The notes under the pieces: generated by a model
Databases searched by the model: none
The model's input: the letters and a program-made list of their open reading frames with translations, nothing else
Told to the model about the DNA's origin: nothing
Translations under genes and position numbers: made by a program
Origin: Candidatus Binatia bacterium
GTDB taxonomy: Bacteria; Desulfobacterota; Binatia; HRBIN30; BPIQ01
Assembly (NCBI GenBank): GCA_026004195.1
Contig: BPIQ01000003.1
Coordinates: 372,001 to 436,000, forward strand
DNA: 64,000 nucleotides
Reading direction: 5' to 3'
Shown: piece after piece, positions 25,769 to 39,175 of the stretch
Numbering within the stretch: position 1 is the stretch's first letter
How the letters are laid out: each line of letters starts with the position of its first letter

Positions 25769-27014
25769 CCCGCACGAGAAAGGTCACCGCCTGCTCGCCG
25801 TCGACGAGCCGGTGGTCGTAGGAAAGCGCGACGTACATCATGGGCCGGACGGCGATCTGCCCGTCGACGACCACGGGCCGCTCCTGGATCTTGTGCATCC
25901 CGAGAATCCCGCTCTGGGGCGGGTTGAGCAGTGGGGTCGAGAGAAGGGATCCGAAGACCCCGCCGTTCGTGATCGTGAACGTGCCGCCCGTCACTTCGTC
26001 CACGGAGAGCTTTCCCTCTCGTGCGCGCGCAGCGAGCCGCGCGATCTCGGTCTCGAGCTCCGCGAACGAGAGCCGGTCGGCGTAACGCACCACGGGAACC
26101 ACGAGGCCGCGCGGGGTGCTCACGGCAATGCCGAGATGGACGTGCTTTTTGTACACCACGTCGGCCCCGTCGATCTGTGCGTTGAGAACGGGGATCTCGC
26201 GCAGCGCCGCGATGCAACTGCGGGCGAAGAACGAGAGGAGCCCGAGGCGAATCCCGTGCTTTCGCTCGAACGCCTCCCGATACCGACGACGGAGTTCGTT
26301 GACGGCGCTCATGTCCACCTCGTTGAAGGTGGTCAGCGTCGCCGTCTCGCGGCGTGCGGCGAGAAGCCGTTCCGCGATCCGCCGCCGGATGGGTGTCATC
26401 GGGACCCGCTCCTCTTCGGCCTCGCCCTCCGCCGAAGGAGTCGGCACCCGCCGAACCCGCCCCTCCTCGCCCACCTCTGCGCCCGAGGGCGTGGGCACCC
26501 GTGCGAGGACGTCGCTCTTGGTCACCCTCCCACCGGGCCCCGACCCCGAGATTCTCGCCGCGTCGACCCCGTGTTCCGCCGCGACGCGGCGTGCCAGGGG
26601 GGTGACCTTCGCCGCAGGAGCGGTCGTGGAACGTTCGGGAGGCTTCGCCGCGGGCGTCTCTTTCGCGGTCCCCGTCCCGGGTGTCTCCTGCGGCACCTCG
26701 CGCCGCTCCGCCGGACGCGCTGGCTTCGACTCCGAAGCGGGCTTCGCCGGCGCACCCTGCGGGGCGCGCCGTTCCCCCGCAGGAGCGATCCGTGCCACCA
26801 CGTCGCCCACGCGCACCGTCTCACCCTCCTGGCGCAGGATCTCGAGCACCCCCTCCCGCTCGGCAGGGATTTCCACGTTCGCCTTTTCCGTCTCGAGCTC
26901 GACGAGGATCTCGTCCGCGCGCACCTCGGCCCCGTGCTCCTTGAGCCACCGAACGATCACGGCCTCCGTGATCGACTCGCCGAGCGGCGGGACCCGTACT
27001 TCAACCGCTTCCAT
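25722..27014 (-). CDS. sucB: 2-oxoglutarate dehydrogenase E2 (dihydrolipoyl succinyltransferase)
   Basis: 430 aa, ATG at 27014 overlapping the sucA end by 14 bases. Lipoyl domain with the modified Lys in [15 protein letters not shown]; Pro/Ala/Lys linker; peripheral subunit-binding domain ([32 protein letters not shown]); second linker; catalytic core with [31 protein letters not shown]-like segment, [14 protein letters not shown], and [13 protein letters not shown] with the catalytic His. TCA cycle enzyme. The E3 subunit gene is not in this window. A direct repeat of RVPTPS sits in the second linker. Confidence 0.93.
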
Positions 27015-29775
27015 GGGCCTCGTCTCGATACTCCGCACCTCCGGACATCGCAACCGGCCCCTGCCAAGCGTCGCCCCCGAGGGCCTGGCGGACGAGTTCC
27101 GCCTCCTCCACCTCGTGCACGGCGTAGACGCCGGTGGCCGGGCTCGCCGCCTCGTCCCTCCCGACGTAAACGATCGGCCGGTCCCCGAGGACCGACCCGA
27201 TGCGGTCGCGTACGAATTGCCACGCTCCCATGTTCCGGGGTTCCTCCTGGACCCAGAACACCTCGGCGGCGTGGCGGTACCGTTCGAGCAGCGCGGCAAG
27301 CTCCCGCGAGGGAAACGGGTAGAGCTGCTCGAGCCTCACGAGCGCCACGCCTTCCACTTCGCGCCCGCGGCGGGCCTCCAGGAGGGTGTAGAACACCTTG
27401 CCGCTGCAGAGGATCAACCGCCGTACGCGCGCCGGGTCATGGACTTCGGGGTCGTCGAGAACCGTGCGGAAGCACCCGTCCGTGAATTCGCGCACGGGCG
27501 AGACCACGAGCGGGTGGCGCAGGAGACTTTTGGGCGTCATGAGGACCAGCGGCTTGCGGAATTTCCTCGCGAGCTGTCGCCGCAAAACGTGGAAGTACTG
27601 CGCCGGAGTCGTGGGGTTGGCGACCTGGAGGTTTTCCTCCGCGCAGAGCTGGAGAAACCGCTCGAGCCGGGCGCTGGAGTGCTCGGGTCCCTGGCCCTCG
27701 TAGCCGTGCGGCAGAAGCAGGACGATGCCGCTCATCCGGTGCCACTTCGACTCGGCGCTCGCGAGGAACTGATCGATGAAAACCTGGGCGACGTTGCAGA
27801 AGTCGCCGTACTGCGCCTCCCAGAGAACGAGCCGATGCGGGTCGGCGAGACTCATCCCGTACTCGAAGCCGAGGACGCCGGCCTCGGAAAGCGGGCTGTC
27901 GACCACCTCGAAGCGACCCTGTTCCGGGGCGATGTGGTCGAGAGGGACATAGGGCTCGCCCGTTTCGTAGTCGTACCAGACGGCGTGCCGCTGACTGAAC
28001 GTCCCACGGCCGCTGTCCTGCCCGCAAAGCCTCACGTTCCGCTTTTCGAGCAGAAGCGAGCCGATCGCGAGAGCTTCCGCGCAGGCCCAGTCGACGCGCC
28101 CTTCCCCCTCGAGCATGCGGGCCCGGTTGCGCATGAGACGCAGCAGCCGGGGATGCGGCCGGAAGCCGTCGGGGACACGCTCGAAGACGCGAACGATCTT
28201 CTCGAGTACCTCCCTGGGGACCGCCGTGTCCGCACCCCAGTCCCCCGACGCCCACCCGAGCCCCTGCCACAGGCCGCCGAACGCGAAAACCTGCTGGCGC
28301 GGACGGAATTGTCGCGCGTATTCCAGCGCCGCCTCGAGAAGCTCCCGCCGCGACCGCTCGGCATCCTCGACCTGCACGGGGTCGAGCACTCCCTCGGCAA
28401 CGAGCCGAGCCTCGTAGAGAGTGCGCACCGTGGGGTGCTCGGCGATCTTCTTGTAGAGCACGGGCTGCGTGTACGTCGGGTCGTCGAGTTCGTTGTGGCC
28501 GTGCCTGCGATAGCACACGAGGTCGATGATCACGTCCTTCCGGAACTTCTGCCGAAAGCGAGCAGCGAGCCGCGCGACGTGCACGACCGCCTCCGGGTCG
28601 TCGGCGTTCACGTGGAAGACCGGCACGCGAATCGTCTTCGCCAGGTCGCTCGCGTAAGGCGTCGCACGGCAGTTCTCGGGGGGAGTCGTGAAGCCGATCT
28701 GGTTGTTCAAGATGACGTGGATCGTTCCGCCCGTGCGGAACCCCCGCAGGCCGGAGAGCATGAGGGTCTCGGCGACGATCCCTTGCCCGGTGAAGGCCGC
28801 GTCGCCGTGGATCAGAAGAGGGACGACTCTCCGCCGCTCGGTATCTCGCAGGTGCTCCTGTTTGGCGCGGACGATCCCCTCGACGACAGGGTCGACCCAC
28901 TCCAGGTGGCTCGGGTTCGGGCTCAGGGAGAGATGGATCTTGCGCCCGCTTTCCGTGGTGTGGTCGTGCGAAAAACCCTGGTGGTACTTCACGTCACCGT
29001 CGCCGTGGGCGTCCTCGGCGAGGCCCGTCCCCTCGAACTCCGCGAGAATCATTTCGACCGGTTTGCGCAGCACGTGGGCGAGGACGTTGAGCCGCCCGCG
29101 GTGAGCCATCCCGATCACGATTTCTTCGGCGCCCTCGTTCGCGGCGGTCTCGACGAGGGTGTCGAGCAGAGGAATGAGGGATTCGCCCCCCTCGAGGGAA
29201 AAACGTTTCTGCGTCGGGTACTTCAGCTGCAGAAACTTCTCGAAGCTCTCCGCGACCAGGAGCCTTTCGAAGATCTTTCTCTTCTCCCCCGCCGAGAGAG
29301 CGGGCCGATTGCGGCAGGGCTCCATCTGCTCCTGGAGCCACTCGCGCTCTTCCTTGACGGGAAGATCGCTGTACTCGACGCCCACGGTACGGCAGTAGGT
29401 CTCACGGAGAGCCCCGAGGAGATCGCGGAGCCGCACCTGCCCGAGACCGCGGAAGCCGCCCGGCGGAACGATCCGGTCGAGGTCCGAGGGGCGAAAACCG
29501 AACTGCCCCAGGTCGAGCAGCGGATGCTCGGTCGGATTCCCACCGAGAGGGTTCAGCTCCGCCGCAAGGTGCCCGAGCTCCCGGTACGCCTGGACGAGAC
29601 CGTACACACCCACGGCGACGGGCTCGCTCTCCGCCCGGGTCCTCCCCGGACCTCCGTCCCCCTCGATTTCCGCGAAAAACCGCGCCAAAGTAGGGTCCAC
29701 CTCGGCCCGGTTTCTCCGGAAGTCCTCGTAGAGTTTTTCCCAGTAGGCTATGCTTTCGTACGTGAGCTCGCGCAT
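27001..29775 (-). CDS. sucA: 2-oxoglutarate dehydrogenase E1
   Basis: 924 aa from ATG 29775 (GGAG 5 bases upstream); ATG 29808 would add 11 residues. Marks: [76 protein letters not shown] (ThDP/Mg region), [27 protein letters not shown] and [21 protein letters not shown]. Decarboxylates 2-oxoglutarate with thiamine diphosphate and passes succinyl to SucB. Divergent from dnaA. Confidence 0.95.
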
Positions 29776-29898
29776 GGGTGCTCCGGTCGACTGCGGGACA
29801 AAATACATCCTGCTGCTCGCTGCGTCACCCCCGACGGTCCCTGCACTCCCTTGCGCGGGTGTAGTGGGGGATCCAGGTCGGGACGCGTCTCGTAAATA

Positions 29899-31053
29899 GT
29901 GGATTCCACGTGCATTTCCAAAAATTCACAGGCTGTGGATAATCCTGTGGAAAAAAGGTCGGGCCCGAAACAGCAAGAGCTTTTCTCCAGGGTTCCGCCC
30001 CATCGCAACTCGGAAACCCACCGACCCGACGGTCTGGTTCCGCGTTACACCTTCGCGAGCTTCGTGGTGGGGTCGGGTAACCAGTTCGCCCATGCCGCCG
30101 CGCTCGCCGTGGCGCACCAGCCAGGGGAGCGCTACAACCCGCTCTTCCTCTACGGTGGGGTCGGCCTCGGAAAAACCCACCTCGCCAACGCCATCGGCCA
30201 CGAGCTCCTCGCGCGCCGCCCCGAAGCACGCGTCCTCTACCTCTCGGCCGAGGCCTTCATGAACGAGCTCATCACGGCACTCCGGAAAAACCGCGTCGAG
30301 GAATTCAAAGCGCGCTTCCGGCGCGTGGACCTCCTCATCCTCGACGACGTCGAGTTCCTCGCCGGCCGCGAGAGGACGCAGGAGGAGTTTTTTCACACCT
30401 TCAACACTCTCTGGGCATCGCAGCGCCAGATCGTCCTCACGTCGGACAAGTCGCCGAAAGAGCTCGAGGCACTCGAGGAGCGACTTCGGAGCCGCTTCGA
30501 GTGGGGCCTCACCGTCGACATCCAACCACCGGACCTCGAAACCCGCGTGGCCATCGTCGAGAAAAAAGCCGACGCGCAGGGACTCCGCCTGCCGCACGAG
30601 GTCGCCCTCCTGGTCGCCAACCATGCGCGGGCGAACGTAAGAGAGCTCGAGAGTTGCCTGAACCGTCTCGAGGCCGTCGCATCGCTCGAGGGCGTCGAAA
30701 TCACGGCCGACCTCGCGCGGCGCGTGCTGGAAAGCATGGGTCAGGGAAAGACCGGAAGCATGGTGACGATCGACGAAATCAAGCGCGTCGTCTGCGAGCA
30801 TTTCCGCCTCTCCCCCTCGCACCTCCTGTCCCGCCGCCGCTCCAGGAACCTGACCTTTCCCCGTCAGCTCGCCATGTACCTCTGCCGCAAGCACACCCCG
30901 GCGTCCTACCCCGTCATCGGAAACGAGTTCGGCGGCCGGGACCACACCACGGTCATCCACGCGATCAACGTCGTCGAAGCGAAGCTGCGAAAAGACCCGG
31001 CCCTGCGGCTTCTCCTTGACAAGCTCGAGCAGTCTCTGCAGGACGGGGCCTGA
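29899..31053 (+). CDS. dnaA: Chromosomal replication initiator DnaA, lacking domain I
   Basis: At most 384 aa (family usually 440-470). Domain III AAA+: YTFASFVVGSGNQFAHAAA, Walker A GGVGLGKTHL (residues 86-95), Walker B LLILDDVEFL, sensor and box VII segments. Domain IV: RNLTFPRQLAMYL and the DNA-binding signature GGRDHTTVIHA. Only about 45 residues precede domain III, so the N-terminal domain I that contacts DnaB and regulators is absent. A stop (TAA, 29893-29895) closes the frame upstream. Possible starts are GTG 29899, 29935 and 29947; the last two overlap the DnaA boxes. Confidence 0.9.
   Translation: MDSTCISKNSQAVDNPVEKRSGPKQQELFSRVPPHRNSETHRPDGLVPRYTFASFVVGSGNQFAHAAALAVAHQPGERYNPLFLYGGVGLGKTHLANAIGHELLARRPEARVLYLSAEAFMNELITALRKNRVEEFKARFRRVDLLILDDVEFLAGRERTQEEFFHTFNTLWASQRQIVLTSDKSPKELEALEERLRSRFEWGLTVDIQPPDLETRVAIVEKKADAQGLRLPHEVALLVANHARANVRELESCLNRLEAVASLEGVEITADLARRVLESMGQGKTGSMVTIDEIKRVVCEHFRLSPSHLLSRRRSRNLTFPRQLAMYLCRKHTPASYPVIGNEFGGRDHTTVIHAINVVEAKLRKDPALRLLLDKLEQSLQDGA
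29934..29954. promoter_or_regulatory. DnaA box pair at the 5' end of dnaA (candidate oriC / autoregulatory site)
   Basis: Read on the - strand: TTTTCCACA, 3 bases, TTATCCACA. The second is a perfect consensus DnaA 9-mer (29934-29942) and the first a common variant (29946-29954). A weaker AAATTCACA lies just upstream and the flanking stretch is locally AT-rich. Location between divergent sucA and dnaA fits an origin or the dnaA autoregulatory region. Confidence 0.7.
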
Positions 31054-31251: not shown

Positions 31252-32367
31252 ATGGAATTCACCGTAGAGCGAGAAAATCTCCTCGGGGCTCTCTACCTCG
31301 CTCAGGGCGTCGTCGAGCGCCGCACCCCCATTCCGGTCCTTTCCCACGTCATGCTGATCGCGGACGGCCAGAGCGTGACGATCGCGGCCACGGACCAGCA
31401 GGTCGGCATCCGCCGGAGAATCGAGGCCGGGGTGAGGAAAAAAGGCAGGGCGACGGGGAACGGCCGGATGCTCTACGAGATCGTTCGTGAGCTTCCCGAG
31501 GGCGAGGTGACGGTCAAGGCCACGGAAAACCGGTGGCTCGAGATCGTGGGCGGCAAGGCGCGTTTCAAGGTCGTCGGGGTGGATCCCGAGGAGTTTCCCG
31601 CGATGCCGGAGATGCCCCGCTCGAAAAAGGGGGTCGAACGTCTCGGTGCCGAAGTCCTTCGCGAAATGATCGTGCGCACGCAGTTCGCGGTCGCGAGCGA
31701 CGAGACCCGAATCAACCTCGCCGGAATCTACGTGGAAAAACTGGGGGAGGCGTCCCTGCGCATGGTGGCCACCGACGGGCATCGCCTTGCCATGGTCACG
31801 AGAGAGGTAGGGTCCTGTGCCGGTCCCTGGGGCGTGATTCTCCCGCGGAAAGGCGTGGGGGAGCTCAGGCGTCTTCTCGAAGCGGGCCCGGAGGGACTGG
31901 AGGTGTCGCTCGTGCACGACGGGGGGCTCGTCCATGTGGGCGCGGGGGACGTGGAGTTGAGCATGCGGCTCGTCGAGGGGGAGTTCCCGGATTACAAACA
32001 GGTGCTTCCCAAGAAGCTTCCGCGGAGGGTCGTCGTTTCCGCGCGCGACCTCGCCGGTGCGCTGCGCCGTGTTTCGCTGGTCTCGAGCGACGTTTCGCAC
32101 GGGGTGCGGCTGTCCTTCGCGGACTCGACGCTGAAGGTATCCTCGATGAACCCCGAACGCGGGGAAGCCGAGGAGGAGGTCGAGGTGTCCCTCGAGGGGG
32201 AGCCCGTCTCGGTCGGTTTCAACGCCCGCTACCTCCTCGACGTCCTCGGGGTGGTGGCGCCGGATGCCTCCATCACCCTCTGGCTCGGGGACGAGCTGAG
32301 TCCGGCGAAACTCGAGGCGGACGACGACCCGGACTTCGCTTACGTGGTCATGCCCATGCGGCTTTAG
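31252..32367 (+). CDS. dnaN: DNA polymerase III beta sliding clamp
   Basis: 371 aa. N terminus MEFTVERENLLGALYLAQGVVERRTPIPVLSHV, SDETRINLAGIYVE, RMVATDGHRLAM, LVEGEFPDYKQVLP, LSFADSTLKVSSMNPERGEAEEEV, FNARYLLDVLGV and the C-terminal MPMRL are canonical. Three clamp domains fit the length. Forms the ring that tethers polymerase to DNA. CAGGAG precedes the ATG. recF, usually next, is absent; gyrB follows directly. Confidence 0.96.
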   Translation: MEFTVERENLLGALYLAQGVVERRTPIPVLSHVMLIADGQSVTIAATDQQVGIRRRIEAGVRKKGRATGNGRMLYEIVRELPEGEVTVKATENRWLEIVGGKARFKVVGVDPEEFPAMPEMPRSKKGVERLGAEVLREMIVRTQFAVASDETRINLAGIYVEKLGEASLRMVATDGHRLAMVTREVGSCAGPWGVILPRKGVGELRRLLEAGPEGLEVSLVHDGGLVHVGAGDVELSMRLVEGEFPDYKQVLPKKLPRRVVVSARDLAGALRRVSLVSSDVSHGVRLSFADSTLKVSSMNPERGEAEEEVEVSLEGEPVSVGFNARYLLDVLGVVAPDASITLWLGDELSPAKLEADDDPDFAYVVMPMRL

Positions 32368-32390: not shown

Positions 32391-37416
<5,026 letters not shown>

Positions 37417-37420
<4 letters not shown>

Positions 37421-39124
37421 CGGCTTCGCGCCGTGCGCTCGCGCTGCTTCTTCTTCTGTTCTCCGTCTCCGGATGCGCGGGGCGCTCCGCGCATCCGGTC
37501 GAGAAAGCGCCCGTCTCGTTCGTCGCCCGCGGCCGGAGCGCCGTCGTAGCCACGGCCCATCCCGCGGCCACCGCCGCGGCCCTGGAAATGCTGCAGTTCG
37601 GGGGCAACCTCGTCGATGCCCTGGCCGCGAGCTCGCTCGCCGTCGGCGTCGTGCGGCCTCAGTCGACGGGACTCGGCGGCGGCGGCTTCGCGGTCCTGGT
37701 GCTCCGCGGTGCCGACGGGGAGCTCGACGCTCGCGCGTTCGACTTCCGGGAGCGCGCCCCGCGGAAAGCGACCCGCGAACTCTACCGTCGCGCTCCTCGG
37801 GACGCGAGCCTTTTCGGAGCCCTCGCAGTGGCGACGCCGGGGCTCGTGGCGGGCATTCTCGAGATCCACCAGCGTTTCGGTCGCCTGCCACGACAGCGGG
37901 TTTTCGAACCCGCGATCCGCCTGGCCGAGGAGGGGTTCGCGGTCTACCCGGGGCTCGCCAGGGCCTCGGCGCGGATGCGCTCCCTTCTCGAGCGGCACCC
38001 CGAGAGTCGGCGCCTCTTTCTTCCGGGTGGCGAGCCCTTGCGGGAAGGGCAGCGTCTCCGGCAACCCGAACTTGCGGCAACGTTGCGGCGGATCGCGGCG
38101 GAAGGTGCGGACGGCTTCTACCGGGGGCCCGTCGCTCGCGCCATCGCAGAGGAGGTCCGGAGGCTCGGGGGCGTGCTCGACGAGAAGGATCTTCGGGCCT
38201 ATCGGGTGGTGGAGCGACCCGTCCTCCGCAGAGCCTGGCGGGGATTCGAGATTTTCGCCATGCCTCCTCCGAGCGCGGGTGGAGTTCTCTGGTTCGAGAT
38301 GCTCGCCATGCTCGACGCGGCCGGCCTCGATGTCTCGCGTCTTTCCGTGGCACGCCGGGCGCACCTGCTCGCGGAAGTGATGCGAAGAGCGTACGAGGAT
38401 CGGGCTCGCTACCTGGGAGATCCCGATTTCGTCGACATCCCCCTCGAACGGCTTCTCTCGGCCGACTACGCCGCCTCGCGCATGAGCAGCTTTCGTCCCG
38501 ACCGCGCCACTCCGGCTCCGGTCGGGGCGGCGTCCCTGGGCGGGGTGAACACGACGCACATTTCGATTCTCGACGCCGAGGGAAATGCCGTCGCGGCGAC
38601 GGAGACGATCAACTACGCGTTCGGGTCGGGGATCACCGTTCCGGGGACGGGCGTCGTGCTCAACAACGAAATGGACGATTTCGTGACCCGGCCGGGAGAG
38701 CCGAACGTCTACGGGCTCCTCGGGTCGGAGGCGAACGCGGTGGCGCCGGGCAAGACCCCGCTTTCGAGCATGTCACCCACCGTCGTTTGCCGGGACGGCA
38801 GCCCCTTTTCTGGTCCTCGGCAGCCCCGGCGGCTCGCGCATCGTCACGGCCACGCTCGAGACCTTCCTGAACGTCGTCTTGCTCCGGATGGGGCTGCCCG
38901 AGGCGGTCGCGGCCCCTCGCATCCACCACCAGGCGTTCCCGAACCGCATCTTCTACGAAGCCGGAGCGCTCCCCGCCGACGCGAGGGCGGAGCTCGAGCG
39001 AATGGGGCACGAGCTCGAGGAGACCGAACCCATGGGGGACGTGCAGGCCGCCATGCGGGAAGCCGACGGGTCCCTCGTCGCGGTCTCCGACCCGAGGGGA
39101 GACGGCAGACCGGGAGGTTTCTGA
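37417..39124 (+). CDS. ggt: Gamma-glutamyltransferase lipoprotein, with an apparent +1 frameshift
   Basis: About 569 aa if corrected; ATG overlaps the gyrA stop. Lipoprotein signal with lipobox SVSGC. GGT marks: [39 protein letters not shown], nucleophile Thr in [43 protein letters not shown]. After SPF the frame shifts. Removing one T from the TTTT run at 38,815-38,818 gives [20 protein letters not shown] and continues to the stop at 39,124. A periplasmic enzyme that cleaves gamma-glutamyl bonds such as those of glutathione. The frameshift may be a sequencing error. Confidence 0.88.
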
Positions 39125-39175
39125 GGGCTCGGTTCGGGCTGGCCTCTCTCGCCGACAGGTGCTAGGCGTTTTTCG

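Follow-up and report, generated by a model that had tools for sequence, protein, structure and literature searches.

A dnaN-linked DnaA without domain I in a two-DnaA lineage of Candidatus Binatia

DnaA occurs in nearly all bacteria, and the recruitment of the helicase is attributed to its domain I. Several dnaA genes per genome are found in Chlamydia and Desulfovibrio, and the genome analyzed here likewise encodes more than one DnaA. We know of no report of complementary domain I loss in one DnaA copy together with a clamp motif, and none was found in the open-access literature. In E. coli, domains III and IV of DnaA are sufficient for oriC opening in vitro and domain I is required for DnaB loading, making contacts with DnaB via E21 and F46 and with DiaA via residues including W25, F46, and W50 (PMC5448010). 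Hda binds the clamp by an N-terminal motif, and clamp-bound Hda triggers the hydrolysis of DnaA-ATP, whereas in B. subtilis YabA bridges DnaA and DnaN in a replication-coupled control (PMC5295017). The DnaA encoded in the window (the whole stretch of 64,000 nucleotides that was analyzed), here called DnaA-a, shares domains III and IV, the ATPase motifs, a pair of DnaA boxes, and the dnaA-dnaN-gyrB-gyrA locus with canonical DnaA (E. coli; B. subtilis, PDB ID 8btg). In contrast to canonical DnaA, it has no domain I, carries a predicted clamp motif right before domain III, and is accompanied in the genome by a second full-length DnaA, DnaA-b. Like Hda (E. coli; HdaA in Caulobacter), it lacks domain I and has a short N terminus in which a motif resembling the clamp-binding one immediately precedes an AAA+ domain of the DnaA type, but it differs from Hda in having domain IV, in its position in the dnaA locus, and in a score of 125.7 bits with the Hda model (NCBIfam TIGR03420), which is under the cut-off of 194.8. 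A physical link between DnaA and the clamp would be shared with YabA, with the difference that the predicted link of DnaA-a would be built into DnaA itself. Phylogeny and synteny identify DnaA-a as a DnaA that has lost domain I.

The longest open reading frame of dnaA-a extends over 29899–31053 on the plus strand and encodes 384 amino acids from the first GTG. Pfam matches delimit domain III, the AAA+ ATPase (Bac_DnaA, residues 48–207, 30040–30519, 234.9 bits), and domain IV, which binds the DnaA box (Bac_DnaA_C, residues 291–357, 30769–30969, 102.1 bits), both on the plus strand. In an alignment with 8btg, the DnaA structure from B. subtilis, which covers residues 44–378 of DnaA-a, the signatures of Walker A, Walker B, the arginine finger, and domain IV are intact. 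In the AlphaFold2 model of a 372-residue form, the AAA+ domain and domain IV are confidently predicted and residues 1–28 are disordered. Domain I is absent, as a sequence-only reading of this DNA had claimed, with no Pfam match to DnaA_N in the protein. A comparison of the domain I sequences of eight relatives with 29301–30100 in every frame gave nothing significant (best E-value 0.054, on the minus strand), and the DnaA_N search of the whole genome returned one site only, inside the other dnaA. A frameshift hiding domain I upstream is ruled out by the lack of a match in any frame, and a separate domain I gene is ruled out by the location of the sole DnaA_N of the genome in DnaA-b. DnaA_N is the only part lost from DnaA-a, and by itself the protein is probably unable to make the contact between domain I and DnaB.

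There is also no room for domain I ahead of the frame, in agreement with the sequence-only reading. The open reading frames of the window place an in-frame stop codon immediately 5' of 29899, and the divergent sucA gene (27001–29808) has its annotated start at 29808 and a better start, judged by its N terminus, at 29775, resulting in a gap of ~125–160 bp to the DnaA boxes. The true start of dnaA-a is probably GTG 29935 (372 amino acids) or GTG 29947 (368 amino acids), which leaves only ~30–35 residues ahead of the AAA+ domain, probably fewer than the ~45 given in the sequence-only reading. Both candidate start codons are overlapped by DnaA boxes on the minus strand, as had been noticed before: box 1, TTATCCACA (29934–29942), contains GTG 29935, and box 2, TTTTCCACA (29946–29954), which lies 3 bp from box 1 in the same orientation, contains GTG 29947. 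The two boxes form the sole TTWTCCACA pair in the 3.63-Mb genome, in which the TTATCCACA of box 1 is the only copy and the remaining TTWTCCACA matches are about as numerous as those for a reversed control pattern. Inspection by eye revealed no convincing DnaA-trio elements beside the pair. The gene lies next to the likely chromosome origin; within the surrounding 100 kb, GC skew has its minimum, a shallow one, beside dnaA-a. An origin at the DnaA-b locus is unsupported, as GC skew does not change direction at that locus and the upstream region has no more than a near-match to a DnaA box. In two members of family f8 (G024 and G031, loci L069 and L070), dense DnaA-box clusters with 7–8 copies of TTATCCACA lie between dnaA and dnaN; such clusters are missing from the window genome, indicating that the layout of oriC varies within the class.

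The loss of domain I from DnaA-a is a derived deletion, because relatives have a longer DnaA at the same place. The f3 relatives carry a TGTGGATAA box that encloses a GTG at the equivalent place, the dnaA start, at -457 to -460 nt from Walker A, compared with -220 nt in the window genome. The distance of the linker motif from Walker A is constant at -61 to -63 codons in the f3 relatives and the window genome. The box being shifted toward Walker A while the linker motif is fixed indicates an in-frame loss of ~78 codons, equal in size to domain I, from the stretch that separates start and linker. Measured against one relative (G002) the loss is 78 codons, and its borders are the start and DnaA box on one side and the linker motif on the other. 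A full-length DnaA in close relatives had earlier been named as a sign of either a deletion or an assembly error; the longer proteins of the relatives are in line with the former, and nothing points to the latter.

DnaA-b is the second DnaA for which a search of the genome had been proposed. It is 480 amino acids long, is encoded on another contig (G000:C2, ~112.2–113.7 kb), and has a canonical domain I (DnaA_N, 67.6 bits). Two DnaAs are present in 13 of the 15 genomes of the order that were analyzed, a count that, like the other paralogue and motif counts given here, is drawn from related genomes and inflated by their kinship. In the tree, DnaA-a and DnaA-b fall into different clades (support for the DnaA-b clade, 100/99), and among the relatives examined in full dnaN directly follows every DnaA-a and never DnaA-b. 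The positions corresponding to W25, F46, and W50 are kept in 14 of 14 DnaA-b proteins of the order, whereas none of the three residues occurs in any DnaA-a of the order, and in three DnaA-a proteins domain I is no longer alignable. The Pfam DnaA_N scores of DnaA-a are 38 bits in G012, 17.7 bits in G007, and nothing in G002, G003, and G006, compared with 61–68 bits for DnaA-b. Domain I of DnaA-a is worn in the relatives from the order and gone in the window genome, which represents the end point. Families f10 and f11 display the same asymmetry between the copies, but both paralogues carry W25 in families f7, f13, and f15, so that having two DnaAs does not force such a split. W25 is kept in 21 of the 23 class genomes with a single dnaA; the completeness of the other two is 85% and 89%, and their second dnaA may therefore simply be missing. 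Three near-complete genomes of family f46 (G088, G124, and G184; loci L231, L232, and L233) have no Pfam DnaA_N match, and their single DnaA has a divergent N terminus that scores 26–29 bits with a home-made domain I model. Some class members among G015–G057 (e.g. G027, G034, G047, G054, and G019) encode yet another full-length protein resembling DnaA, a third one that is more divergent, with PF00308 matches of 90–133 bits and open frames of ~500 amino acids or more.

A second case of domain I loss was found in the phylum sample, in which DnaA_N is present in 116 of 120 good genomes and G132, a distant genome, is among those without it. In the dnaA-dnaN-gyrB-gyrA locus of G132, DnaA begins MLNTDLRFTFENFVVG, i.e. 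at domain III and with no domain I, behind a good ribosome-binding site, AGGAGAAGAAGTCTATATG; QxxLF is absent from this dnaN-linked protein. The second DnaA of G132, which is also present in G058 from the same genus, retains domain I, with F46- and W50-like residues in its N terminus (CPNAFSVQWL). The G132 loci are L228 and L238 on contig G132:C203 and L236 and L239 on G132:C142; in tetranucleotides the two contigs resemble each other as closely as pairs from one genome do (0.17 versus 0.13–0.18, with 0.29–0.42 for different genomes), though G132 is listed as 8% contaminated. Domain I has probably been lost at least twice, in both instances from the dnaN-linked one of two DnaAs. Since G132 lost domain I without having QxxLF, this loss and the clamp motif are not necessarily connected.

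The pentapeptide QQELF (29971–29985, plus strand), a predicted β-clamp-binding motif, has outlasted domain I in DnaA-a of the window. Its counterpart in relatives, conserved directly after domain I of DnaA-a, reads Q-[GQRH]-E-L-F, in many cases with P as the next residue. QxxLF is present in 29 of 29 DnaA-a proteins of two-dnaA genomes and in 0 of 29 DnaA-b proteins of the same genomes, in 2 of 79 unrelated DnaAs, and in 1.8% of proteins with shuffled linkers, so that neither chance nor a property common to DnaA linkers accounts for it. It also occurs in 12 of the 23 genomes with a single dnaA and hence does not depend on the duplication. Of the 42 carriers of QxxLF, 39 have glutamate at position 3, a residue that the pattern leaves free, and the flanking residues vary. 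The clamp-binding consensus is QL(S/D)LF (PMC9690074), and QQELF fits it. The motif probably ties DnaA-a to the replication clamp, in the manner of the N-terminal motif of Hda. No Hda scored over the model cut-off in 58 genomes (the window genome and 57 relatives), and a search of the open-access literature for deltaproteobacterial Hda or clamp control found nothing.

We place about even confidence in the reading that DnaA-a is a derived, domain I-less DnaA in a two-DnaA lineage with a division of labor, in which DnaA-b would recruit the helicase and DnaA-a would be a clamp-tethered, partly Hda-like initiator. This proposal starts from what the genomes display, namely the domain I loss, the second DnaA, the complementary domain I residues, the conservation of the motif, the lack of a detectable Hda, and the presence of DciA, and from these we infer clamp binding, mixed filaments, and a regulatory role in trans. 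DnaA-a would keep ATP binding, filament formation, and DnaA-box binding through domains III–IV, and both proteins would assemble at oriC, with DnaA-a opening and marking the origin and DnaA-b providing domain I for the recruitment of DnaB, together with DciA. After clamp loading, DnaA-a would be tethered to clamps via QQELF, and its AAA+ domain may act in trans on neighboring DnaA, which would be the job of Hda in genomes that have no Hda. A stricter two-initiator system, in which DnaA-a gave up helicase recruitment and became its own clamp sensor in the role of Hda, DnaA-b alone brings the helicase, and initiation and feedback are split between the two DnaAs, is less likely than not. An origin-linked DnaA without domain I and a second DnaA with it amount to a natural separation-of-function experiment, in which origin opening and helicase recruitment could each be assigned to one of the two proteins. 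Should the motif bind the clamp, DnaA would have a built-in feedback link coupled to replication, and this would add a third solution to those of Hda and YabA.

The division of labor could be correct and the linker motif could bind another partner, or the helicase side, instead of the clamp. Such a partner would be compatible with the loss of domain I in G132, which has no motif, and with the clamp role being drawn from the consensus, but we consider it unlikely given the fit of QQELF to the published QL(S/D)LF (PMC9690074), the same kind of pentapeptide (QIGLF) in DnaE1 of the window genome, and the clamp motif of Hda, which directly precedes the same AAA+ domain (PMC5295017). It is unlikely that DnaA-a is a decaying paralogue heading for loss, with a functionless truncation and DnaA-b as the sole true initiator. 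Domain I wear across the order and its disappearance in the window genome would be expected of a decaying copy, but domains III–IV are intact and no less conserved in DnaA-a than in DnaA-b (62% versus 59% for the closest relative; end branches of 0.47 versus 0.68), nothing apart from DnaA_N has been lost, and DnaA-a still has its place with dnaN-gyrB-gyrA, its linker motif, and the DnaA-box pair that is unique in the genome.

The sequence-only reading had suggested that initiation may use another loader, i.e. that helicase recruitment has moved off DnaA entirely, to DciA or a different protein, which we regard as very unlikely. The window genome encodes one DnaB and the helicase operator DciA, which is present in most bacteria, and the degenerate domain I of DnaA-a throughout the order would also be in keeping with such a move. 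However, the position of the DnaB contact F46 is kept within a canonical domain I in every DnaA-b of the order, and DciA also occurs in tested class members with one full-length DnaA (e.g. G015, G018, and G019), indicating no replacement specific to the window genome. The DnaC-like loader that was to be looked for did not emerge, as no DnaC/DnaI-like protein was found and the only PF01695 matches over the cut-off in the genome are the two DnaAs. With a second full-length DnaA that has domain I, plus DciA, another loader is not needed.

An assembly or sequencing artefact that removed domain I is extremely improbable: the frameshift in gyrB 3.4 kb downstream of dnaA indicates imperfect local accuracy, all relatives in the order have a longer DnaA-a, and the family is represented in the comparison by the window genome alone, but a base indel cannot delete ~240 bp, no remnant of domain I remains in any frame, the loss is in frame and lies exactly between the start with its DnaA box and the linker motif, and in the independent genome G132, where a clear ribosome-binding site precedes the gene, domain I has been lost in a like manner.

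The locus around DnaA-a has the order dnaA-dnaN-gyrB-gyrA, with dnaN, encoding the β-clamp, at 31252–32367 on the plus strand. Compared with its relatives, gyrB (32484–34932) switches from frame 3 to frame 1 between 34487 and 34516. Because gyrB is essential this is likely to be a sequencing indel, with a pseudogene or recoding as alternatives. The divergent neighbor of dnaA is sucA in the window genome only; several relatives have a hemL-like gene there, as judged by eye, with an atpB-like gene beyond. Further downstream, a γ-glutamyltranspeptidase-like open reading frame (37417–39165) apparently loses its frame near 38740–38880, and its C terminus apparently resumes in the open reading frame 38879–39124, both as seen by eye.
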